The notes under the pieces were generated by a model. The model had not been told where the DNA came from and did not search any database. It saw only the letters and a program-made list of their open reading frames with translations. Of a DNA stretch of 64,000 nucleotides, positions 568 through 60,445 are shown in pieces. A program made the translations under genes and the position numbers. Position 1 is the stretch's first letter. Each line of letters starts with the position of its first letter. The DNA is from an uncultured Clostridia bacterium (lineage in GTDB: Bacteria; Bacillota; Clostridia; UBA1381; UBA9506), in NCBI GenBank assembly GCA_944393605.1, contig CALYAO010000044.1, forward strand, positions 1 through 64,000, read 5' to 3'.

Positions 568-923
568 GATATGTGTCCTCCCAGCTTGGAATATAACGTT
601 GGCTTTGGTCTGTTTTGGTGCATGCCTTGCAGCAGCGGCCCCGATGCATGCTGTGCCGCCCGCCGTGGTTCCGCTTTCAAAGGACGGGCTTTTGGGGCGT
701 GTTGCGGCGGCCTGCCATTCCAATCTACAGTATACCACATGGGCCCGCCCGCCGCAATGGGACAGCCATGGGGAACCAGATAAAAATATGGAGAAAATCA
801 TTGACGAACCCAAAATCATGGAGTATAATATTGGGTATTGATAAAAATGTCTCAAAGACCTGACACCCATGGGTCAACAATGCAAGGCCGGGCATTCCGG
901 CCGCAATCAATGGAGGTTTTGTT
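568..923. other. Intergenic region between U32 gene and serC
   Basis: A divergent gap of 356 bases with no convincing gene. It holds the serC promoter (801-829) and a serC leader with the inverted repeat GGCCGG/CCGGCC at 886-902. A palindrome ACCCATGGGT lies near 866-875. Nothing clear is seen in 600-780. Confidence 0.6.
801..829 (+). promoter_or_regulatory. Sigma-A promoter for serC-serA
   Basis: TTGACG (801-806), a 17-base spacer and TATAAT (824-829). Predicted transcription start is near 836, giving a leader of about 90 bases before serC. Confidence 0.8.
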
Positions 924-2006
924 ATGGCAAGAGTGTATAATTTTTCAGCGGGCCCGTCCATGCTGCCGGAGGACGTGCTAAAGCGGGCGGCGGCAGAGAT
1001 GACCGAGTATGGATCGGCCGGCATGTCCGTCATGGAGATGAGCCACAGAAGCCCCGCGTTTGAGGAGATCATCCAGGGGGCGGAGGCGACCCTGCGTGAG
1101 CTGATGCACATCCCTGACAACTACAAGGTGCTGTTTTTGCAGGGCGGTGCGTCCAGCCAGTTTGCGATGGTGCCCCTAAACCTAATGAAGGGCTCCAAAA
1201 AGGCGGATTTCGTCATCACGGGCCAGTGGGCCAAGAAGGCGGCGAGTGAGGCGGAAAAATTCGGGACGGTCAACCGGGTTGCGAGTTCTGCCGACAAAAC
1301 CTTTTCCTACATTCCCAAGCTGGATCCGGCCACGTTTGACAAAGAGGCCGATTTCTTCCATATCACGCTGAACAACACCATCTATGGGACGCGGTATACC
1401 ACCCTGCCCGACACGGGGAACGTGCCGCTGGTCGCGGATATCTCTTCCATCGTGCTGTCCGAGCCCATCGATGTGTCCAAGTTCGGCCTGCTGTATGCGG
1501 GTGCGCAGAAGAACATGGGCCCTGCGGGCGTGACGGTGGTCATCATCCGCGAGGACCTCATCACGGGCGCCATAGAGGGTACCCCCACCATGTTTGATTA
1601 CAAGATTCATGCGGACAACGGCTCCATGTACAACACCCCCCCGACCTATGCCATCTACATCTGCAAGCTGGTGTTTGAGTGGCTCAAGAACCTGGGCGGC
1701 GTGGAAGCCATGTATGAGATCAACAAGAAAAAGGCCGCCATTTTGTATGATTTCCTGGATCAATCCAAGCTGTTTACGGGGACCGTGGTGCCGGAGGACC
1801 GGTCGCTCATGAACGTGCCGTTCGTATGCCCCACCGAGGAGCTCAACGCCCAGTTCATCAAAGAGGCCAAGGCCGCCGGCTTTGTGAACCTCAAAGGCCA
1901 TCGGACGGTGGGCGGCATGCGTGCATCCATCTACAATGCGATGCCGGTGGAGGGCGTCGAGAAACTGGTCGCGTTTATGCGGGACTTTGAAGCGAAAAAC
2001 AGCTGA
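924..2006 (+). CDS. serC: Phosphoserine aminotransferase
   Basis: A PLP enzyme (360 aa) that transfers an amino group from glutamate to 3-phosphohydroxypyruvate, the second step of serine synthesis, in the cytoplasm. The protein opens with VYNFSAGPSMLPEDVL, the family's N-terminal signature. GAQKNMGPAGV supplies the PLP lysine at about residue 196, and GGMRASIYNAMP near the C-terminus is also conserved. Length is normal. The ATG lies about eight bases after GGAGG. serA, the preceding enzyme of the pathway, starts 37 bases downstream, so the two probably form one transcript. Confidence 0.97.
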   Translation: MARVYNFSAGPSMLPEDVLKRAAAEMTEYGSAGMSVMEMSHRSPAFEEIIQGAEATLRELMHIPDNYKVLFLQGGASSQFAMVPLNLMKGSKKADFVITGQWAKKAASEAEKFGTVNRVASSADKTFSYIPKLDPATFDKEADFFHITLNNTIYGTRYTTLPDTGNVPLVADISSIVLSEPIDVSKFGLLYAGAQKNMGPAGVTVVIIREDLITGAIEGTPTMFDYKIHADNGSMYNTPPTYAIYICKLVFEWLKNLGGVEAMYEINKKKAAILYDFLDQSKLFTGTVVPEDRSLMNVPFVCPTEELNAQFIKEAKAAGFVNLKGHRTVGGMRASIYNAMPVEGVEKLVAFMRDFEAKNS

Positions 2007-2043
2007 TTTATCTTCATAAAATGAAAAAGGCGGGTGCATACTA

Positions 2044-3213
2044 GTGTTTGATATTTTGACACTCAATAAAATTGCCCAGTGTGGCCTGTGCCACCTGGAA
2101 AAGGAAAATTATACCATTTCGGAAAACGCATCGGATCCCGATGGCATCATTCTCCGCAGCTATGCCATGCACGACATGGAGCTGGGGAAGAACCTGAAGG
2201 CTGTCGCGCGGGCGGGCGCGGGCACGAACAACATCCCGGTGGACAAGTGCTCCGAGCGGGGCATCGTCGTGTTCAACACGCCGGGGGCCAATGCCAACGC
2301 GGTCAAGGAGCTGGTGATCGCGGGGCTCATCCTGTCCTCCCGTGACGTGATTGGTGCGGTGGAATGGGCCAAGGGCCTCCAGGGCCAGGCGGACATCCCC
2401 AAGCTGGTGGAGAAGGGCAAGAGCCAGTTTGTGGGGCCCGAGATCAAGGGGAAGAAGCTGGGCGTCATCGGCCTGGGCGCCATCGGCGTCATGGTGGCAA
2501 ACGCTGCCAGCTACCTCGGCATGGAGGTGGTGGGCTATGACCCGTACATGACGGTGGACGCGGCATGGGGCCTGTCCCGCAACGTCAAGAAGGCCGCGGA
2601 CGTCAAAGAGATCTTTGAGACCAGCGACTATATCACCATCCATGTCCCCTTAAATGACAGCACGCGGGACACGATCAACTGTGACACCATCGCACAGATG
2701 AAGGACGGCGTCCGGATTCTGAACTTTGCGCGCGGCGGACTGGTCAACAATGCGGACATCTTGGATGCCCTTGCAAGCGGCAAGGTCGCATGCTATGTCA
2801 TTGATTTCCCCGACGAGGAAGTGCTGGGCGTCAAAAACGTCATCGCCATCCCGCACCTGGGCGCATCGACGCCTGAGTCGGAGGACAACTGTGCGGTCAT
2901 GGCGGCGGTGCAGCTGAAGGATTACCTGGAAAACGGCAACATCACCAATTCGGTCAACTATCCCGATTGCCATATGCCACGGGAAGAGGGCATGACGCGG
3001 CTCACCATTGCGCACAAGAATGTGCCCAACATGCTGAGCCAGTTCTCCACCATGATGGCAGGCAAGGGGATGAACATCCATAACATGCTCAACAAGAGCA
3101 AGAAGGAGAATGCGTTCACCATCATGGACATCGACGGCGTCATCACCGATGAGATGATTGCCGCGATTGAAGGGATCGAAGGTGTCCAGCGCGTTCGCAT
3201 CATCCCGGCATAA
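2044..3213 (+). CDS. serA: D-3-phosphoglycerate dehydrogenase
   Basis: An NAD-dependent enzyme (389 aa) oxidising 3-phosphoglycerate to 3-phosphohydroxypyruvate, the entry to serine synthesis. The nucleotide-binding motif GVIGLGAIG sits near residues 139-147. The HLGASTPESEDNC segment carries the catalytic histidine. The last 75 residues form an ACT-like domain (NMLSQFSTMMAGKGMNI onward), the usual serine-sensing module of the short SerA type, so feedback inhibition by serine is likely. The start is GTG 2044, placed by an AAAGGCGGG site. It is cotranscribed with serC and followed by a hairpin at 3242-3275. Confidence 0.96.
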   Translation: MFDILTLNKIAQCGLCHLEKENYTISENASDPDGIILRSYAMHDMELGKNLKAVARAGAGTNNIPVDKCSERGIVVFNTPGANANAVKELVIAGLILSSRDVIGAVEWAKGLQGQADIPKLVEKGKSQFVGPEIKGKKLGVIGLGAIGVMVANAASYLGMEVVGYDPYMTVDAAWGLSRNVKKAADVKEIFETSDYITIHVPLNDSTRDTINCDTIAQMKDGVRILNFARGGLVNNADILDALASGKVACYVIDFPDEEVLGVKNVIAIPHLGASTPESEDNCAVMAAVQLKDYLENGNITNSVNYPDCHMPREEGMTRLTIAHKNVPNMLSQFSTMMAGKGMNIHNMLNKSKKENAFTIMDIDGVITDEMIAAIEGIEGVQRVRIIPA

Positions 3214-17110: not shown

Positions 17111-17689
17111 GTGGCAAAACGGCATCCTTTCAGGCGGTTTGTGCTGGTGGTATTGGTCTTTGTGCTTGCCGCCGGTATCTATAATATCAAGCATATCCTG
17201 CGCGCCATCTATCCGGTGGCCTATGAGGAGGATATCTATGCGGCGGCACAGGAGTACGCGGTAGATCCGTATCTCATCATGGGCATCATCAAGGCGGAGA
17301 GCGGGTTTGACGTGCATGCGGTATCCCATAAGGATGCGCGCGGCCTCATGCAGCTCACCGATGAGACGGCGGAGTGGATTGCGGAAAAGCTGGGCCTTTT
17401 AGACTATGATGTCACGCTGTATGCCGACCCTGCGCTCAACATCCGCATGGGATGTTACTATGTGCGGTATCTGTCCGATTTGTTTGAGTATGAGACCAAG
17501 ACGGTGCTGGCGGCATATAACGCGGGGCCCAACCGGGTCAAGGAGTGGCTGGCGGATCCCGCGTATTCCAACGACGGTGAGACGCTCACCCACATTCCCT
17601 TCCGTGAGACCGAGCGGTATGTCAATAAGGTGCAAAACTATGAGGATGTGTACAGGCGGCTGTACAGTGCGGATGCGCCTGTGCAATAG
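17111..17689 (+). CDS. Membrane-anchored lytic transglycosylase (SLT domain)
   Basis: A 192-aa peptidoglycan lyase that cleaves MurNAc-GlcNAc bonds to leave 1,6-anhydro ends. One N-terminal hydrophobic anchor (FVLVVLVFVLAAGIYNI) places the domain outside the cell. The SLT fold shows the catalytic glutamate in IIKAESGF, then DARGLMQLTDETAEWIAEKL and LAAYNAGPNRV. This is the short Slt/MltE type common in Bacillota. GTG start at 17111. An SLH-domain protein follows 10 bases later. Confidence 0.92.
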   Translation: MAKRHPFRRFVLVVLVFVLAAGIYNIKHILRAIYPVAYEEDIYAAAQEYAVDPYLIMGIIKAESGFDVHAVSHKDARGLMQLTDETAEWIAEKLGLLDYDVTLYADPALNIRMGCYYVRYLSDLFEYETKTVLAAYNAGPNRVKEWLADPAYSNDGETLTHIPFRETERYVNKVQNYEDVYRRLYSADAPVQ

Positions 17690-17699
17690 GAGATTACCC

Positions 17700-18377
17700 A
17701 TGAAAACGAGAAGCATTGTGATGTTGCTGGCAGTTCTGCTGACAGTTGGTTTGCCGCCGGTTTCGGCGGCGGAGGAGGTAGAGGACGCGCTGTCCCACCT
17801 GGATGCGCTGGTGGGAGAACATGGAACGGCGGGGCCGCAAACGCCCTTTTCGGACCTGGACGAGGCGGCCTGGGCAGCGGAGGACATCGCGTTTTTGGTG
17901 GACCGGGGAATCCTGGCGGGTGTGGAAGAAGGCCGGTTTGCGCCAAACGACAGCGTGACGCGGGCGCAGTATACCAAGATGCTGGTGCTGGCGCTAGGGC
18001 TGTATGACGAGACGGCGGCGCCTGCGTTTTCGGATGTAGCAGAGACGCACTGGGCAGCAAGCTACATCGGTTCCGCGTTTTCCCCAATGGAATTGGGCGG
18101 GGAGGCCTTTTCCCCGGATGTGCCCATTTCGAGGGAGGATATGGCCTATTTTTCGGTGCTGCTGATGCAAAAGGCGGGCATTTCGGTGCCGCTGGACGCA
18201 ACCGTATCGTTTGCCGATGAGGCGGATATTGCGGCCTATGCAAAAGGGGCGGTTGCGGCCATGGCGGACCTTGGGATCATTCATGGCGTTGGGGACAACC
18301 GGTTTGACCCCAAGGGCAACTGTACCCGTGCGGCGGCAGCCAAGGTGCTGCGCGGCGTCATGGATGCCTGTGCGTAG
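17700..18377 (+). CDS. Exported S-layer homology (SLH) domain protein
   Basis: A 225-aa protein with a signal peptide (MLLAVLLTVGLPPVSAAEE; cleavage likely after VSA) followed almost entirely by SLH repeats: FSDLDEAAWAAEDIAFLVDR with GRFAPNDSVTRAQYTKML, FSDVAETHWAASYI with FSPDVPISREDMAYFSV, and FADEADIAAYAKGAVAAM with RFDPKGNCTRAAAAKVL. SLH domains bind pyruvylated cell-wall polysaccharide. No separate effector domain is visible, so it may be a small wall-coating protein. Its 3' end overlaps apbE by 14 bases. Confidence 0.9.
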   Translation: MKTRSIVMLLAVLLTVGLPPVSAAEEVEDALSHLDALVGEHGTAGPQTPFSDLDEAAWAAEDIAFLVDRGILAGVEEGRFAPNDSVTRAQYTKMLVLALGLYDETAAPAFSDVAETHWAASYIGSAFSPMELGGEAFSPDVPISREDMAYFSVLLMQKAGISVPLDATVSFADEADIAAYAKGAVAAMADLGIIHGVGDNRFDPKGNCTRAAAAKVLRGVMDACA

Positions 18378-25392: not shown

Positions 25393-25469
25393 ATGCTGTT
25401 TCACAAGGTATGTTTTTGTGGAAAACGCGCACCCTAAATGGGAAGACATGTCAAAGGAGGCGCTTTTTC

Positions 25470-27188
25470 GTGCATGCCTATTTGCATCCCAATGGGGATG
25501 GTTCTTATGATCTGATTTTGGAGACGGGGCGGTTTGATGCGGAATTTGCCCTGGACTTTTTCCGGCGGGGCGGCGGTTTAGCGGGGTTGTTTCCCGCCAG
25601 CAGCGTCCGCATCCGGATGGTCAAGCTGCTGGTCGCCGGGAGCTTGCTGCTGGCAATCCCGTTTACCCAGTTTACCGCTGCGCAGGACGACGTACGGTAT
25701 GCGATGTCCTATGTCTATTTCGGCAGCGTCGCCACCCAGATTCGCAACGTGCTCGCAGCCAAGGACGCGCTGTCCGTTGCGTCCCCCAGCTATTTTGACC
25801 TCAATGCGGACGGCAGTCTGAAGCTGGGATATGTGAGCGAGGACTTCATCCGCACCATGCATGCCAACGGGATTCGCGTGGTACCTTTTCTCAGCAACCA
25901 CTGGGACAGGCAGTCGGGTGTCAACGCGCTCGCAAACATTGAGGGATTGGTGGCGGACATCGTCGCGGCCATCGAGCAGTATGACCTGGATGGTGTCAAT
26001 GTGGACATCGAAAATGTCACCGAGAAACAGCGGGATCAATACACCACGCTGGTGCGCCGGCTGCGGGAGTCCCTCCCGGCGGACAAGGAGGTGTCCGTCG
26101 CGGTGGCGGCCAATCCCAGGGGATGGAACACGGGCTGGCATGGCTCCTATGACTATGCTGCGCTGGGCCAGTATGCCGACCACCTGTTCATCATGGCCTA
26201 TGATGAGAGCTACCAAGGAGGCCCGGCGGGCCCGGTCGCGAGCATTGATTTCGTGCGGGATTCCATCACCTATGCGCTGGCGCGTGTCCCCGCCGAAAAG
26301 ATCGTGCTGGGCATTCCATTTTTTGGGCGCCTGTGGCAGACGGGCGGCGCGGTCACGGGGGAGGGCATCTCGCTGAGCCGCGCTGCGGAGCTCGTGTCAC
26401 AATATGGCGCACAGGTGACCTATGATGCGGCATCCCGCTCCCCCAAAGCGGTCTTTACCATCCCCGAAAATGGGCCGGCTTTTACGCTAAACGGCAGGAC
26501 CCTGCCAGCGGGGGAGTATGTGCTTTGGTTTGAGAACAGTGACAGCCTGAAGGAGAAGCTCGCGTTGGTGAGCCAGTTTGATCTCAAAGGTGCGGGCAAT
26601 TGGAGCGCGGGGCAGGAGACGTCTGACGTCTGGGACTACTATGAGCTATGGCTCAACGGCAAGTATTTTTCGGATATCCACAGCCACTTTGCCAAGGACG
26701 CCATCATCCGCGTCACGACGGATGGCATCATGAAGGGGGTTTCAAACAGCGAATTTGCGCCCCATGACAAACTGACACGTGCCCAGGCGGCTGTGGTGTT
26801 TGCGCGGCTGCTGGATCTGCCGCAGACGGATGCTGCCGCGCCCTATACGGATGTCGCAGGGCACTGGGCGGAGCGGGAGATTGCGGCCGCGGCCGCCGCC
26901 GGATTGATGGAGGGGTATGGCGATGGCATATTTGGGCCCGATGAGGCGGTGACACGGGAGCAGATCGCGGCATTGCTCGCGCGGGTACTGGGCAGAGCGG
27001 GCAATCTGCGGGGGCGGATTGATTTTACGGATGTGTCCCCCGAGCGGTGGTCCTATGATGAGATCACCGCCCTGGCGCAGATGGGCATCCTGATGGGATA
27101 TGAGGACAACACCTTCCGCCCCGGGCAGGACATCGACCGCGGGGAGCTTGCCGCGCTGGTGGATCGGGTGTTGGACCTGTCTGAATAA
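25470..27188 (+). CDS. GH18-family glycoside hydrolase with three SLH domains
   Basis: A surface enzyme of 572 aa. Order: about 45 hydrophilic residues, one transmembrane or uncleaved signal segment (MVKLLVAGSLLLAIPFTQF, about 50-68), a GH18 barrel (about 75-375) with the catalytic motif DGVNVDIE near 173-180, and three SLH domains from about 400 to the end. Relatives such as SleL/YaaH cleave spore or cell-wall peptidoglycan, others cleave chitin. The SLH set points to wall anchoring. GTG 25470 follows AAAGGAGG. The N-terminal extension before the membrane segment is unusual for an exported protein. Confidence 0.88.
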   Translation: MHAYLHPNGDGSYDLILETGRFDAEFALDFFRRGGGLAGLFPASSVRIRMVKLLVAGSLLLAIPFTQFTAAQDDVRYAMSYVYFGSVATQIRNVLAAKDALSVASPSYFDLNADGSLKLGYVSEDFIRTMHANGIRVVPFLSNHWDRQSGVNALANIEGLVADIVAAIEQYDLDGVNVDIENVTEKQRDQYTTLVRRLRESLPADKEVSVAVAANPRGWNTGWHGSYDYAALGQYADHLFIMAYDESYQGGPAGPVASIDFVRDSITYALARVPAEKIVLGIPFFGRLWQTGGAVTGEGISLSRAAELVSQYGAQVTYDAASRSPKAVFTIPENGPAFTLNGRTLPAGEYVLWFENSDSLKEKLALVSQFDLKGAGNWSAGQETSDVWDYYELWLNGKYFSDIHSHFAKDAIIRVTTDGIMKGVSNSEFAPHDKLTRAQAAVVFARLLDLPQTDAAAPYTDVAGHWAEREIAAAAAAGLMEGYGDGIFGPDEAVTREQIAALLARVLGRAGNLRGRIDFTDVSPERWSYDEITALAQMGILMGYEDNTFRPGQDIDRGELAALVDRVLDLSE

Positions 27189-51869: not shown

Positions 51870-51953
51870 TCGGGTAAAATTCTGCCAAAAAACATAAAAA
51901 AGTACAATACCGTTCCAGCGGTTTGTGATATAGTATGATAAAACAAAATAACA

Positions 51954-52057
51954 CTTATCTGGGCCAGTCCGGCCAAAACGGAATGGGGTGCAAGTCCCCG
52001 CGAGCAAGTCACTGTGAAGCCCTTTTTTGGGATAAGTCAGATACGTATTCAGATAAG
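51954..52057 (+). ncRNA. Cobalamin riboswitch aptamer (short class)
   Basis: The P1 stem is CTTATCTG (51954-51961) with CAGATAAG (52050-52057). Inside are GGAATGGGGTGCAAGTCCCC (P3/P4 core with the conserved GGTGnnAnTCC loop), CAAGTCACTGTGA (the CACTG element) and AAGTCAGATAC (B12 box core). At about 104 bases it lacks the long side arms of the classical AdoCbl type and may belong to the class II forms. It is followed by a strong terminator, so ligand binding probably stops transcription of the two genes downstream. Confidence 0.88.
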
Positions 52058-52104
52058 ATCGCTGTTTTTGCTTGTACCGAAAACGGACGATGGCTCAGAA
52101 TTGT

Positions 52105-52146
52105 AAGCGCCTGTCTTTGGAAAAGCAAAGACAGGCGCTTTCTTTG
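52105..52146 (+). terminator. Riboswitch-controlled terminator
   Basis: AAGCGCCTGTCTTTG (52105-52119) and CAAAGACAGGCGCTT (52126-52140) form a 15-bp stem followed by TCTTTG. It lies between the aptamer and the 52200 gene, with no gene ending nearby, as in an expression platform. Confidence 0.88.
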
Positions 52147-52199
52147 TATCTATAAAAAAATAGATAAACAAATGTAACATAAAAGGAGGAGACAAAACG

Positions 52200-55100
52200 A
52201 TGAGATTGAAGAAGCAGTGTGTGGCGCTGCTGCTGGGGCTGTGCATGCTGTTTGCGTGCATGCTGCCGGCTGTCGCCGACACGCAAGCGGCACTCACGCT
52301 GTCGCTGGTGGAGGCCGAAGGATTTGCAAACGGCCAGGAGGCGCATGTGACGCTTCTGGCGGAGAATGACGGGGATGCACCCGTTCAGGCAGCATTCTTT
52401 TTGGCGCTGTATGAAACGGATACCAACCGCATGGAGGCCTATACCTATGTGATGGATACCGTTTCTGCGGGGGCGGACAAGCAGTGGGGCGCGGGGATGC
52501 CCATCCCGGACACGGGCAGCTATTATATGAAGGCCTTTGCCTGGGATGACCCGACCGGTGCGTCGCTGGTCAGCAATGTGCTGGAGATCGCCATGGGGCA
52601 GACGGGGCCCGAAGAGGATGTTGCAGAACGTGTCGAAGCGGCCATTTTGAAAACGGGCGCCTATGTCGCAGAAAAGGTGCCATCGCCCTCCGTTGGGATG
52701 GAGAGCGGCGACTGGGCGGTCTTTGCGCTGGCCCGTGCGGGCGTTCAGGTGCCCGCTGGCTACTATGACGGCTACTATGAGCGCGCAGCACAGCGCATTG
52801 CGTCCGAAGCTGCGAAAGAAGACGGCGTCTGGGATGACAAGGTGACGGAGGTGCAGCGCGTTGCGCTGGCGCTGACCGCCATTGGCAAGGATCCGCGTGA
52901 CGTCGGCGGCGAGGACCTGTTGGATTACAGCTATAACAAAGCGGATCATTTCCCGGGAATCAAGCCAGACGGCGAGCTGGGCAGCCGCCAAGGCGCCAAC
53001 GAGCTGATCTATGCGCTGCTGTCGGTGCAGGCGCATGATGCCTATGCCGCGCCCGCTGAGCCTTCCATGGATGAGGCAGAAATGGTAGATGCGCTGCTTT
53101 CTTACAAAGCGGAAGGCGGTTTTGCGCTGTCGGAAGGCGGTGCGCTGAACGCGGATGTAACGGCCATGGCGGTGCAGGCGCTCGCAAAGGCATATGACCA
53201 GCCGGCAGTCAAAGAAGCGGTGGATACGGCGCTTGCGACCTTGTCGGAGCTGCAGTCGGCAGACGGGCAGATCGCGACGGAGAACGGAGAGGTGAAGTCG
53301 CTGGAGACGGTTGCCCAGACCATCGTTGCGCTGACGGAGCTGGGCATGGACCCCGACACCGACGCGCGGTTTGTAAAAGGGGAGAACAGCCTGGTGGATG
53401 CGCTGTTTGCCTATGCGGAGGCAGATGGCTCCTTCCGGCATCTTTTGACCGACGAGGAAAGCAGCCAGATGGCGACCGAGCAGGCATTGTATGCGCTGGC
53501 GGCGCTGGATCGGTTCTATGCGGAGAAGAACACGCTCTATGACATGAACGACGTGACGCTGACGTCGCCTGCACCTGCCGGCATCGCCATTCCGGAGGAA
53601 GCGCTGGCGGCAAACGCATACGAGACATTCTATTACCTGGCGGATCAGACCTATCTCTATCAGGGACAGACCGTCACGTTTGTGTCGGAGAGCGAGATGC
53701 AGGCGGGAGACCAGACCTATCCGCTGCGGAACAAGGCCGTCGAGGTGACGGTGAAAACGGCTGAGGACGGGGCAACCATCGGCTTTACGGGGCTGACCAC
53801 GCCGGTTGGCTCTGTGTCGGACAAGTGGAATTTGGGCTTTGGCGGCGCGGTGCAGATTGCGTATCAGTCGGATATCCCCGGACAGGCCGAGGTGCGCTCA
53901 GAAAACGAAAATCTGACCGAGCTGGTGTTGTCTGACCTCCCCGCCGGGACCTATCATTTGACGAATGGAGCCATCTATGAGGCGGCCAATGAATGGAGCC
54001 CGGGGATAGACTTCGGGGATGGCAAAGGAACCGTCAAGGAAGGCTATTTTGGGACGCTGCCTGACCTGACCATAACGGTCGCAGGCAAGCCGACCGAAGA
54101 GCCGGTTGGGACGGTTTCGGTCTCCATTGAAAAGCGGACCATCGGCAAAGGGGACACGCTGCCGCTGATGCAGACGGACCTCTATGCGGGCGAATCCGCA
54201 TGGGACTTGCTGTCGCGCGTGAGTGCGGCGCAGGGCATTGCGGTCAAAACCACAGGCAATGGGGATGCGATGTACGTTTCCGCAATCGACGGAGACGGCG
54301 AGTATGACTATGGATCGGTCAGCGGCTGGATGTATTGTGTGAACGATGAGATGCCGTGGGTCGGCATTGCAAACTATCAGCTGCAGGACGGGGATGTCCT
54401 CCGGATGCGGTATTACACGGCGGGCTCCATGCAGGAGGACTGGTCGGCGTTTTTGCCGCTGGTAGACCGTCTAGCCTATCTTATCGATGAGACAAACGAG
54501 CTACTTGCGTCGGGCAGCTATACCGAGAGCTCCCGCCAGGCGGTAGAAGAGGCACTAGCAGCGGCGCAGCCCATTGTGGATGACCCGCAGTATGATTCCA
54601 CCGAGACCGAAAAGGAACTGGTGGTAAATGAGTACATCGGGCGCTTGATGCAAGCGGTGGACGGTCTGGTGCCGGGCAACGAGGAGCCGCCTTCGGACAG
54701 CGAGGTGCCCGATGATTGGGAGAACGATCTCTGGCTCCAGTATGATTTTAAGGAGATGTCGGTGGGGGACACGGCGGATATCTATCCGCGGCGGGTGCCC
54801 CAGGCGGTTGCGGATGTGATCAACAATGATGTGGAGCGTCCCAACTTCCGGTTTGAGATCGTATCAGGAGACAGCATTGCGCTGGAAGAGGTGCCAAACA
54901 GTACAGATCCCTCCCGTACGGACAAGGTGACCGTGACGGCGGTAAAAGAAGGGGTCAGCATTGTGAAGGTCAGCTACGATGCCTTCACGCATTCGCAAGG
55001 CACGGCGTTTGGCGCATGCTCCCCCGTCAATGAGACCTATGCCATCTTCCATGTGGCAGGGGCCGACTGCGGCATTGCCATTGACCCGGGTGAACAGCTC

Positions 55101-55754
55101 AAAGCCACCCGTTCATATGATACCATCTACTTTGACAAAGGGGATACCGTGGACTATACCATAAAACCGGTCGTGACGGGTGCGGACAGTGTGACGGTGA
55201 CCGTCAATGGAAAGACCGTGGAGGCAAACCCAAATGGCAGCTATACGCTCCCGCTGGAGAGCCGTGCAAACATCATTGGCATCTCCGCGCAAAACAGCAC
55301 GGGGGCGACCTGTTACTACCAGGTGGTGGATGCGCGGAAGATGGAGATTCAAATTGTGAACAAAACCCATCCCGGCGAGGCGCCCCGCGCGGGGGACACC
55401 TTAAACATCAGCTTCCGCGGTATCACGCCGCCGATGTATAAGCTGGCAACCATTTATAATCCCTACCTTGGCAGCAGCGATCAAGTGGAATATACCAATG
55501 CGCAGCTGGGGACGGTCGTAGGCAAGTCGGGACAGGGCGATTTGGCCACCAACAACGATTTTGATGTAGTGGTGGAAGAGGCCGGAACCTACCAGTTCAC
55601 GGGCGGACGGATCTTAAGCAAGTGGTTTGGCGAGGAACTGGGTGAGGATAAAAACATACAGGGTCAGGGGAATCCCAATCTGGGTGCTGGTACCCATGAG
55701 GGGTATTTTAGCACACTGCCCGATTTTGCCATTACAGTGGCTGCGGCGGAATAG
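52200..55754 (+). CDS. Exported transcobalamin-like protein: alpha/alpha-toroid plus DUF4430
   Basis: A 1184-aa secreted protein. Signal peptide (LLLGLCMLFACMLPAVA, cut before DTQ); a beta-rich domain (about 28-130); a prenyltransferase/squalene-cyclase-type repeat region (about 138-443; for example GGFALSEGGALNADVTAMAV); a first copy of a module ending GYFGTLPDLTITVAG (about 523-629); a DUF4430 (transcobalamin C-terminal-like) domain (about 636-741; SGWMYCVNDEMPWVG); a helical linker; Ig-like parts; and a second copy of the module (about 1065-1184; GYFSTLPDFAITVAA). Toroid followed by DUF4430 is the intrinsic-factor layout, and the B12 riboswitch upstream supports corrinoid binding. No LPXTG or SLH is seen. 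Confidence 0.88.
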   Translation: MRLKKQCVALLLGLCMLFACMLPAVADTQAALTLSLVEAEGFANGQEAHVTLLAENDGDAPVQAAFFLALYETDTNRMEAYTYVMDTVSAGADKQWGAGMPIPDTGSYYMKAFAWDDPTGASLVSNVLEIAMGQTGPEEDVAERVEAAILKTGAYVAEKVPSPSVGMESGDWAVFALARAGVQVPAGYYDGYYERAAQRIASEAAKEDGVWDDKVTEVQRVALALTAIGKDPRDVGGEDLLDYSYNKADHFPGIKPDGELGSRQGANELIYALLSVQAHDAYAAPAEPSMDEAEMVDALLSYKAEGGFALSEGGALNADVTAMAVQALAKAYDQPAVKEAVDTALATLSELQSADGQIATENGEVKSLETVAQTIVALTELGMDPDTDARFVKGENSLVDALFAYAEADGSFRHLLTDEESSQMATEQALYALAALDRFYAEKNTLYDMNDVTLTSPAPAGIAIPEEALAANAYETFYYLADQTYLYQGQTVTFVSESEMQAGDQTYPLRNKAVEVTVKTAEDGATIGFTGLTTPVGSVSDKWNLGFGGAVQIAYQSDIPGQAEVRSENENLTELVLSDLPAGTYHLTNGAIYEAANEWSPGIDFGDGKGTVKEGYFGTLPDLTITVAGKPTEEPVGTVSVSIEKRTIGKGDTLPLMQTDLYAGESAWDLLSRVSAAQGIAVKTTGNGDAMYVSAIDGDGEYDYGSVSGWMYCVNDEMPWVGIANYQLQDGDVLRMRYYTAGSMQEDWSAFLPLVDRLAYLIDETNELLASGSYTESSRQAVEEALAAAQPIVDDPQYDSTETEKELVVNEYIGRLMQAVDGLVPGNEEPPSDSEVPDDWENDLWLQYDFKEMSVGDTADIYPRRVPQAVADVINNDVERPNFRFEIVSGDSIALEEVPNSTDPSRTDKVTVTAVKEGVSIVKVSYDAFTHSQGTAFGACSPVNETYAIFHVAGADCGIAIDPGEQLKATRSYDTIYFDKGDTVDYTIKPVVTGADSVTVTVNGKTVEANPNGSYTLPLESRANIIGISAQNSTGATCYYQVVDARKMEIQIVNKTHPGEAPRAGDTLNISFRGITPPMYKLATIYNPYLGSSDQVEYTNAQLGTVVGKSGQGDLATNNDFDVVVEEAGTYQFTGGRILSKWFGEELGEDKNIQGQGNPNLGAGTHEGYFSTLPDFAITVAAAE

Positions 55755-55763
55755 GAGGACGGT

Positions 55764-57152
55764 ATGTTACGACGTATAACAGGGATATGGCTGGCCATGC
55801 TGCTTCTACTCGCTGCGGCTTGGCCGGTGGCCGCGGCCGAGCCCGAGGTGACGGCGGACGCGGAAACAGGGGAAGTCACCATTTTGGTCAGCGGCGAAGC
55901 GGGTGCGCCCGCTGGGATCCGCATAGAGCGGGCAAACAAGTGTTATTTTTTGGACAGTGCCTATCTGGGATCGGACGGAACCCATACCTTTGCCACCGTG
56001 CTGCCTGTGGATGACGCGGAATATGACGCCGTGGTCAACGTGGCAGGGACAGAGACAACGTTCACGATCCGGTTTGAGGAGGGTGGAGGCGACAACCCCG
56101 GCGGCGGGACGAACCGCGACACGGTCCGCTTTTCGGTGGATGCCCTGACCATTGACCGGGGGTACTTGGTGTCTCAGACGACCGTGACACTGCGGACGGG
56201 GGATACGGTTTGGAGCGTACTGGAGCGCGTTTTGCAGGAGAAGGGCATTGATTATACGAGCGACAGCAGCGGCGGCCGGTATGTCACCTCCATCGACGGC
56301 ATCGGGGAGTTTGATCATGGCCCCGGCAGCGGCTGGATGTATAGCGTAAACGGCACCTTCCCTGACCAAGCCATGGACAAGTATCGGCTTTCGGATGGGG
56401 ATACCATTCGGATTCGATATACGACGGACTATGGCGAAGACGTGGGAGACAACTATGAAGAGAAGCCCCCGACAGGCGGCGATGGCGGCGGGAGCACCGG
56501 CGGCAGTACTGGCGGAAACACGGGGGGCGGGAATACCATCAACGTTCCCGGAAACGGCAACCAGGGCACAGATCCTGCAACGGATCAGCCGGCGCTGAAG
56601 TTTACGGATGTTCCCGAGGACCATTGGGCCAGATCCTATATCCAGGATCTGGTACAGCAGCAGATCGTCAGCGGGCGCACTGATACCTTGTTTGCACCCG
56701 AGGACAACGTGACGCGTGCAGAGTTTGTCAAGCTGCTGGCGGCGGCGTCCGGCGCGGCATTGGAGGCAGCATCTGACGTGCAGTTTGAGGACGTGCCGGC
56801 GGATGCGTGGTTTGGGCCGGCGGTCGCATGGGCGGCGCAGCATGCGGTGGTAAATGGCGTCGATGAGACGTATTTCGATCCGGATGCCCCCATCACGCGG
56901 GAACAGGTTGCGGTCATGCTGACGCGCTTTGCGGACAGCGTGCTGCAGGTTGCGCTGCCTGCCAATCAGGATGCTGTGACCTTTGCAGATGCATCCGCCA
57001 TCTCGGAGTATGCGCGGGATGCGGTGACGGCGATGCAGCGAGCGGGAATTATTAGCGGCCGCGACAATGGGCAGTTTGCCCCTGGCGAAACCGCCACCCG
57101 TGCGGAGGCAGCCAAGATGCTCTCTTTAATACTGGATGTCGCGCAGCAATAG
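55764..57152 (+). CDS. DUF4430 (transcobalamin-like) protein with three SLH domains
   Basis: A 462-aa surface protein. Signal peptide (AMLLLLAAAWPVAAAEP), a small beta domain (about 25-105), a DUF4430 domain (about 118-220; GDTVWSVLERVLQEKG, GSGWMYSVNGTFPDQA), a Gly/Ser/Thr linker (about 228-270) and three SLH repeats (FTDVPEDHWARSYIQDLV, FEDVPADAWFGPAVAWA, FADASAISEYARDAV). It starts nine bases after the previous stop behind AGGAGG and shares the riboswitch. The SLH set would fix this domain to the wall, perhaps as docking partner of the large protein. Ligand binding is inferred from the family and the riboswitch. Confidence 0.9.
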   Translation: MLRRITGIWLAMLLLLAAAWPVAAAEPEVTADAETGEVTILVSGEAGAPAGIRIERANKCYFLDSAYLGSDGTHTFATVLPVDDAEYDAVVNVAGTETTFTIRFEEGGGDNPGGGTNRDTVRFSVDALTIDRGYLVSQTTVTLRTGDTVWSVLERVLQEKGIDYTSDSSGGRYVTSIDGIGEFDHGPGSGWMYSVNGTFPDQAMDKYRLSDGDTIRIRYTTDYGEDVGDNYEEKPPTGGDGGGSTGGSTGGNTGGGNTINVPGNGNQGTDPATDQPALKFTDVPEDHWARSYIQDLVQQQIVSGRTDTLFAPEDNVTRAEFVKLLAAASGAALEAASDVQFEDVPADAWFGPAVAWAAQHAVVNGVDETYFDPDAPITREQVAVMLTRFADSVLQVALPANQDAVTFADASAISEYARDAVTAMQRAGIISGRDNGQFAPGETATRAEAAKMLSLILDVAQQ

Positions 57153-57170
57153 AGGATATATGGTGATCGT

Positions 57171-57202
57171 AAAGTGCCCCGGCAAATGCCGGGGCACTTT
57201 TG
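57171..57202 (+). terminator. Terminator of the DUF4430 operon
   Basis: AAAGTGCCCCGGC and GCCGGGGCACTTT form a 13-bp stem around AAAT, followed by T. Confidence 0.9.
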
Positions 57203-57510
57203 CGTTGTGCCATGACTTGCACATTCGCCAGGAACATAAACCTAAATTTTGGTAACGCGCAGGGGCAAACCTTTTTTCGCATAAAAAGGCCTTATTTCCT
57301 CATGGTTAGGCGACCTTTTGTGATGTCCCAAATAATGGGAATCGACTGTTCCGCGGCGAAAACGGAGGAGCGGTGGACCGCGTGCCGACCGTCTTGCACA
57401 TACGGCAGCGGCGCGCATTGCTTCTGTTGTTTCGGTTACAAGGTTGCTTTATGCGGGCCATTGGCAGGCGCTGTGTTTTGGGGGAAGTGGAATTGATTTG
57501 GATGTAAAAA

Positions 57511-59440: not shown

Positions 59441-60445
59441 TTATGCATACACTGCCCGGAACATGGCCTCCACATTGGCAAGCGGAACATTGGGCAGCAG
59501 CGCTTCGTGGGAAGGGCTGACGACAAAATTCGGGCCAAACGCCTCCCGCAGCCGCATCACCTCGTCATAGACCTCTGTCGGTGACCCTGTGACCAACAGT
59601 TCCTGCGTATCCACACCGCCGACAAATGCAATATCGCTGCCGTATTCACGAAAAAGCGTCCTGGCATCCATGCCGCTTGCCTTGGCTTGAAGCGGATGCA
59701 GTGCGTCGATGCCTGCATCGATGAGGGCGGGGATCACCCGCGAGATGGCGCCGCAGGAGTGCAGCAGGACCTTCTTTTGGTGCTTCTTTGCGACCTGGAT
59801 GAGCCGGCGGAAGGAAGGCAGAATAAACCGCTCGAAACACGCCATGGAAACCAGCAGATCCCGCTGGGTGCCAAAGTCGTTGCCAAAGAAAAAGGTATCC
59901 ACGCGGTCTCCGGCCTCTGCAAAAAAACGGTCATTGGCAGCGACATAAAAATCCACAACCTTTTCGGTCAAGGCTTCCACCACCGCGGGATGGGTATACA
60001 TCTTTACAAAGTATTCTTCCATGCCCAACAGATCGCACATATCGTGGAAGAAGCAGCTCCACATGCCTGAAAAGACTGCTTTGTCCTGCATGGTGTCGAG
60101 TTTTGCGATGGCATCTGTGAAATCGCAGTCCGCCGGGTCGGGCCAGGGAAGCGATTCCACCTCCGCCACCGTCTCGACGTGGGCTAGGGTGCAACGGTCC
60201 AACGACTGTACCTTTTGAGCGCCGAAATCGAACAGTTGGTTGCCGCTTTCTGCGCGGTAACAATCCTGCGCAAATACCCACCGGCAGTCGTCTCCAAAGT
60301 GGGTCTGCAGCGCTTCAAGGTCCGAAAGGCCCAATGCAGTCAGGTAGATTTCCAGCGTTTTGGGGTCTGGATTGCCGATCCAGCTGCCGCATGTTCCGTC
60401 TCCTTCGCGGCGGAAGATCCGTAAGATTTTTTCCCGTTTTGTCAT
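59441..60445 (-). CDS. Uroporphyrinogen decarboxylase family protein (methyltransferase-like)
   Basis: A 334-aa TIM-barrel protein of the URO-D superfamily. It lacks the arginine-rich N-terminus of true HemE and has KKVLLHSCGAISRVIPALIDAGIDALHPLQ, listed here by key residues H and C of the HxC zinc motif, plus a glycine-rich FVGGVDTQELL. These point to the MtaA/CmuA-like corrinoid or cofactor methyltransferase branch rather than heme synthesis. No corrinoid protein gene is adjacent. The start follows AAAGGGGGG. Confidence 0.85.
   Translation of the reverse strand: MTKREKILRIFRREGDGTCGSWIGNPDPKTLEIYLTALGLSDLEALQTHFGDDCRWVFAQDCYRAESGNQLFDFGAQKVQSLDRCTLAHVETVAEVESLPWPDPADCDFTDAIAKLDTMQDKAVFSGMWSCFFHDMCDLLGMEEYFVKMYTHPAVVEALTEKVVDFYVAANDRFFAEAGDRVDTFFFGNDFGTQRDLLVSMACFERFILPSFRRLIQVAKKHQKKVLLHSCGAISRVIPALIDAGIDALHPLQAKASGMDARTLFREYGSDIAFVGGVDTQELLVTGSPTEVYDEVMRLREAFGPNFVVSPSHEALLPNVPLANVEAMFRAVYA

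Follow-up and report, generated by a model that had tools for sequence, protein, structure and literature searches.

Proteins combining a toroid with an SLBB domain were described in low-GC Gram-positive bacteria by Burroughs, Balaji, Iyer and Aravind in 2007 (PMC1796856). In the available parts of that paper, the operons encoding these proteins also hold CbiO/CbiQ-like genes and the gene of a further SLBB protein, a paralogue of the first, and the hosts lack B12 synthesis. B12 scavenging was predicted for these systems, and the bacterial operons were proposed as the source of the animal B12 carriers. The same parts mention neither riboswitch control nor a CbrT-like S domain, and SLH or S-layer anchoring is unmentioned in the text. 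No experimental test of the 2007 prediction was found in the literature, and among the retrieved titles and abstracts on DUF4430 none refers to B12 binding in bacteria.

At the membrane, ECF-CbrT of Lactobacillus delbrueckii (PDB 6fnp) is a proven B12 transporter, for which the available portion of the report describes no extracellular partner (PMC5997447). The CbrUVT systems (Rodionov et al.) are listed as transporters of B12 or its precursors (PMC6593275, PMC8123684). In Bacteroidetes, BtuG and BtuH bind B12 at the cell surface on behalf of an importer (PMC6143338, PMC8941943), and the proteins described below may play a similar part. However, BtuG is a beta-propeller that works with the TonB-dependent BtuB in an outer membrane, and neither BtuG nor BtuH is among the 50 fold matches listed for the protein P1 described here, so the likeness is one of functional analogy only.

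The locus considered here lies in a 64,000-nucleotide stretch of the genome of an uncultured, gut-type Clostridia bacterium, termed the window. It contains two adjacent genes encoding the proteins P1 and P2. These proteins probably constitute a B12-repressed, wall-anchored corrinoid-capture device that feeds a CbrT-type ECF importer in trans. The gene anatomy, the fold, the pairing logic of the RNA, the importer with its conserved linkage and the markers of auxotrophy are documented below, and we infer from them corrinoid binding, the hand-over to the importer, contact between P1 and P2 and the response to B12. The idea is not new, as it was outlined in 2007. The present analysis adds control by a riboswitch, an S domain resembling CbrT, anchoring through SLH domains, a structure match and the split of the system over two loci.

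Gene anatomy and leader of the P1/P2 operon

Table 1. Features of the P1/P2 operon in window coordinates, and the second locus in the same genome
Feature	Position	Strand	Evidence or detail
Probable cobalamin riboswitch aptamer	51954..52057	+	RF00174 match span 51943-52067, 19.4 bits
Aptamer closing stem (P1 stem, 8 bp)	51954-51961 / 52050-52057	+	arms CUUAUCUG/CAGAUAAG
Aptamer loop L5, GUGCAAGU	51988-51995	+	pairing check
P13 hairpin	52058..52091	+	loop region holds L13 GCUUGUAC at 52070-52077
Putative antiterminator strand (5' part of P13)	52062-52073	+	
Predicted intrinsic terminator hairpin	52105..52140	+	15 bp, then UCUUUGU
Terminator 3' arm	52123-52134	+	12/12 pairing with antiterminator strand
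P1, exported, 1184 aa: alpha/alpha toroid, beta-module, DUF4430 (SLBB), C-terminal beta-modules, no SLH	52200..55754	+	
P1 alpha/alpha-toroid domain, aa 131-470 (about)	52590..53609	+	
P1 DUF4430 (PF14478), aa 664-738	54189..54413	+	E 8e-14
P2, exported, 462 aa: DUF4430 and three SLH	55764..57152	+	
P2 DUF4430, aa 146-220	56199..56423	+	E 3.7e-21
P2 SLH triplet, cell-wall anchor	56598..57149	+	E 2.9e-38, three stretches
GC-rich hairpin and T run closing the two-gene unit	57171..57203	+	direct sequence reading
C4 operon (L031): alpha/alpha+SLH, DUF4430 protein, EcfT, EcfAA-S	other contig	-	

A first-pass annotation of the window had noted two adjacent exported DUF4430 proteins, an alpha/alpha toroid in the first and SLH anchors on the second, and this anatomy is borne out (Table 1). 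Each protein carries a signal peptide, both ORFs are intact, and a ribosome-binding site is present. The P1 toroid comprises 12 helices in the AlphaFold prediction, mostly with a pLDDT above 90. Beyond a sub-threshold match to Glucodextran_B, the beta-modules of P1 have no further match in NCBIfam or Pfam, and a search of 95 genomes from the order gave a single match to the P1 C-terminus outside its own genome. No further genes of the unit were seen between 51.9 and 57.2 kb. In addition to P2, other SLH proteins are encoded in the window.

This arrangement, an exported protein with a toroid fused to DUF4430 (equivalent to SLBB) accompanied by a second, paralogous SLBB protein, is that of the 2007 operons as far as these are set out in the available parts of the paper. 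There are two differences from those operons. Here the toroid+DUF4430 and DUF4430+SLH proteins are separate genes, and the transporter genes lie at a second locus, termed C4. Neither the window ORFs nor a domain search placed ECF (CbiO/CbiQ-like) or BtuFCD transporter genes next to P1 and P2.

The leader upstream of P1 had been read as a short cobalamin riboswitch with a terminator. It scores 19.4 bits with the Rfam covariance model RF00174, below the curated gathering score of 31.5 bits, and is the top candidate in the 2.5-Mb genome (E 0.009). A genome-wide search for other B12 riboswitches, which the annotation had suggested, gave only one further RF00174 candidate. This candidate, on contig C7, scores 16.9 bits and was rejected as a false match, since it falls within the coding sequence of a 1769-aa protein. 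Because the leader is sub-threshold and a candidate in coding sequence scores only 2.5 bits lower, the RF00174 score by itself is marginal. Matches of the leader to the S15 leader and to other Rfam families fell below their own cut-offs and were taken as chance.

The riboswitch reading is upheld by structure. The leader has the closing P1 stem, L5-L13, P13 and a terminator with an antiterminator, which are the elements of a class-I-type cobalamin riboswitch. The kissing loop between L5 and L13 is a trait of cobalamin riboswitches. In the window, L5 and L13 are complementary at 8 of 8 positions, including two G-U pairs, and this pairing was equalled in 62 of 5000 dinucleotide shuffles. The antiterminator duplex (-17.6 kcal/mol) was reached by 10 of 2000 shuffles. 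Judged from its sequence, the leader is probably a short, degenerate member of RF00174 of class-I type; the label is qualified in this way because the score is under the cut-off, yet the best in the genome. The geometry of L5-L13, terminator and antiterminator suggests a switch that would turn the operon off when ligand is bound.

Fold comparison with animal B12 carriers

The animal B12 carriers transcobalamin, intrinsic factor and haptocorrin combine an alpha6/alpha6 toroid with a transcobalamin-type beta-grasp domain, as P1 does. The structure of P1 aa 126-760 was predicted template-free from a 27-sequence alignment; the toroid and DUF4430 are confident in this model, and the beta-module between them is of low confidence. 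In a fold search of the PDB, ranks 1-15 are taken up entirely by transcobalamin, intrinsic factor and haptocorrin (E 3e-8 to 8e-6), with toroid and beta domain in the same order, and terpene cyclases begin after them at E 3.5e-5. The transcobalamin-like reading proposed for the operon is thereby strengthened. Identity between the model and the animal carriers is about 10-14% over the alignment. The overall RMSD is 8-13 angstrom, because the relative placement of toroid and DUF4430 is not fixed by the P1 model. A compact natural fusion of a C4-type toroid with DUF4430, L129, places the same 15 animal carriers on top (E 1.5e-10 to 6e-8) and aligns with the isolated transcobalamin beta-domain at a TMt of 0.71-0.74.

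At the sequence level, neither the DUF4430 profile nor the toroid profile detected a transcobalamin, intrinsic factor or haptocorrin chain in the PDB, and the latter matched squalene-hopene and terpene cyclases. P1 is therefore not filed as an orthologue of the animal family. Unlike the animal carriers, the bacterial system also has extra beta-modules, wall anchoring through P2 and riboswitch control, and its proposed route of uptake is an ECF importer, in contrast to receptor endocytosis.

Importer locus, host and related operons

The genome encodes four DUF4430 proteins in total. At C4, a DUF4430 protein with a hydrophobic segment at its N-terminus is encoded together with an alpha/alpha+SLH protein and ECF components. 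The DUF4430 domain at this locus shares 33-39% identity with those of P1 and P2, and the C4 toroid shares 39% with that of P1. In EcfAA-S, two ABC ATPase domains are joined to an ECF S domain within a single 889-aa chain. The best PDB sequence match of the S domain is the S subunit of ECF-CbrT (6fnp_A, E 5.6e-13), followed by 4hzu at 0.018, and ECF-CbrT is thus its nearest solved structure. With a CbrT-related S domain, EcfT and two EcfA, C4 has the make-up of a CbrT-type ECF importer. Unlike ECF-CbrT, it is a dedicated module in which one chain unites both ATPases with the S domain, and toroid and DUF4430 proteins are encoded alongside. The first-pass annotation had anticipated an importer elsewhere in the genome, either ECF or BtuFCD. 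The ECF option is the one that stands, whereas BtuFCD is not the importing partner, because a search of the genome found no BtuF-type Peripla_BP_2 protein. The C4 operon leader has no RF00174 match up to E 10. By eye, it resembles a cobalamin riboswitch, with P1 arms, ACUGU, GAGUCAGAAUGC and a terminator, and is regarded as a candidate only.

The host appears to use corrinoids that it has to take up from outside. Its genome, which is 95% complete, lacks CbiC, the one marker of corrin synthesis that was searched for, and this absence indicates a host without B12 synthesis. A BtuR-type adenosyltransferase is present and the PduO type is absent from the genome. Moreover, a corrinoid protein is encoded next to a RACo-type activator and a PocR/AraC regulator. 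Consistent with SLH anchoring, the genome also encodes a member of the polysaccharide pyruvyl transferase family.

Relatives were sought with the DUF4430 alignment as query in one genome per species, and the DUF4430 protein of C4 proved to have more than 500. Wherever a name is given, the best 80 of these fall in Bacillota; many are from gut MAGs, and named hosts include Paenibacillus, Flavonifractor, Cellulosilyticum, Sporobacter and Ructibacterium. In most of these 80, the gene order is [toroid/DUF4430/SLH]-[alpha/alpha+SLH]-[DUF4430]-EcfT-EcfAA-S. RF00174 matches occur in at least 48 of the 49 genomes of relatives searched. In at least 12 genomes with exactly one match and with the sequence upstream of the operon covered, this match lies 15-242 bp upstream of the operon. 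In genomes of the same family, both halves of the system are united in a single operon that follows a cobalamin riboswitch scoring 35-64 bits (e.g. L033, L043, L045). At a further locus, L032, DUF4430 lies beside non-B12 genes.

The toroid and DUF4430 are fused in P1, L129 and L065, and they also occur unfused, each on its own protein, within the same operons. One locus of Cellulosilyticum ruminicola (L060) was considered as a case of separate toroid+DUF and DUF+SLH genes and rejected, as these are the halves of one frameshifted protein, with pieces in the order DUF4430, toroid, DUF4430, SLH. P1 and P2 therefore look like the usual first protein of the operon split into two genes.

Proposed mechanism, alternatives and significance

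At high intracellular cobalamin, the aptamer would bind cobalamin, L5 would dock on L13, P13 would form, and the terminator would halt transcription. When cobalamin is scarce, the 5' strand of P13 would instead pair with the 3' arm of the terminator, and P1 and P2 would be made. P1 may then bind corrinoid between its toroid and DUF4430 in the manner of transcobalamin. P2 would be held through its SLH domains on a wall polymer or the S-layer and would contribute a second beta-domain. P1, which has no anchor of its own, is perhaps retained by contact with P2 or by its own beta-modules. Together, the two proteins would be the counterpart of one toroid+DUF4430+SLH protein, which in relatives is the product of the first operon gene. 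The corrinoid may finally be handed to the membrane-proximal DUF4430 protein and then to the CbrT-like ECF importer of C4.

The ligand need not be cobalamin itself. It is somewhat unlikely, though of the alternatives it fares best, that the surface proteins bind one or more other B12-related ligands, such as cobinamide, other cobamides or corrinoid precursors, with regulation and import as proposed. ECF-CbrT imports cobinamide in addition to cobalamin, according to the available part of that report (PMC5997447), alternative vitamers have been proposed for Cbr transporters (PMC6593275), and a wider ligand range of the clade is conceded in the parts of Burroughs et al. 2007 at hand (PMC1796856).

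An improbable alternative is that the operon in the window has decayed or is a superfluous copy, in which case the alpha/alpha+SLH and DUF4430 proteins of C4 would perform the capture and P1 and P2 would contribute little. Toroid, DUF4430 and importer are indeed all present in the C4 operon already, and the window riboswitch is degenerate. However, intact ORFs with signal peptides and a ribosome-binding site, together with a complete switch-terminator, argue against decay, and an additional, large toroid+DUF4430+SLH protein is encoded by the first operon gene in many relatives. Less probable still is that P1 and P2 serve a general surface or adhesive role, with a terpene-cyclase-like or glycan-active toroid behind an unrelated attenuator: the toroid profile does match cyclases, SLH domains and beta-modules are frequent in surface proteins, and DUF4430 also occurs next to non-B12 genes, but the fold search with the two-domain region ranks B12 carriers above cyclases, the relatives are tied to CbrT-like ECF and cobalamin riboswitches, and a cobalamin core with L5-L13 is present in the window leader.

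Within the preferred reading of corrinoid capture for a CbrT-type importer, the occurrence of toroid and DUF4430 both fused and separate suggests that the halves meet on the ligand. A tentative extension, possible if short of an even chance, is a "split transcobalamin", in which the toroid of SLH wall proteins and the membrane-tethered DUF4430 would close on a corrinoid across the wall and deliver it to EcfAA-CbrT. If true, such a split carrier would be a first case of a relay that captures the substrate of an ECF transporter outside the cell, and it would be a surviving relative of the protein from which intrinsic factor descended.

The gathering of B12 beyond the membrane in Gram-positive bacteria is largely unexplained, and the literature found assigns no extracellular partners to Cbr-type transporters. 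If the proposed capture device is real, a widespread operon type of gut and soil Bacillota (more than 500 candidate loci) would compete for B12 by means of relatives of the human carriers. The proposed bacterial origin of animal intrinsic factor and transcobalamin would then become testable with purified proteins, and compact natural fusions like L129 lend themselves to binding studies and crystallography.

Cobalamin riboswitches and the leader of the ECF operon

The ECF operon on contig C4 of the same genome is preceded by a riboswitch-like leader in which complementary P1 arms, ACUGU and GAGUCAGAAUGC can be recognized by eye, with a terminator on its 3′ side. The RF00174 model reported no match for this leader, which is possibly a divergent cobalamin aptamer particular to the lineage. 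Among the matches listed in the RF00174 search of operon carriers, four genomes (G042, G046, G064 and G023) have 9–20 cobalamin riboswitches each, and many others have exactly one.

Genomic setting

The URO-D family, to which one window protein belongs, includes corrinoid-linked methyltransferases. Contig C41 (L134) of the same genome carries the gene of a corrinoid protein next to those of RACo and a PocR/AraC regulator. SLH anchoring is generally used by this genome, since the window encodes two further SLH-anchored proteins, one of them a glycosyl hydrolase family 18 protein. The small DUF4430 protein on contig C77 has no obvious B12 context.

Features of the window and related loci
Feature	Location	Coordinates	Strand	Remark
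URO-D family protein (PF01208)	window	59441-60445	-	family match
SLH-anchored protein	window	25410-27188	+	
SLH-anchored protein	window	17406-18377	+	
P1 beta-module, copy 1 (aa 501-640)	window	53700-54119	+	internal duplication
P1 beta-module, copy 2 (aa 1041-1182)	window	55320-55745	+	internal duplication
Cobalamin-riboswitch-like leader, ECF operon	L031, contig C4	11277-11386	-	by eye
Small DUF4430 protein	L032, contig C77	5916-6428	+	directly 3′ of L-fucose isomerase-like gene
Compact natural toroid + DUF4430 fusion	L129, Gracilibacteraceae MAG	780-2399	+	

Toroid–DUF4430 proteins

P1, the exported toroid and DUF4430 protein of the window, contains a duplicated beta-module without a Pfam family, the two copies being 28% identical. 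Across 95 genomes searched from the order, the last 355 residues of P1 have a single match beyond its own genome. The Gracilibacteraceae fusion, directly followed by an EcfT gene, has the domain order of transcobalamin and is well suited to structural work.
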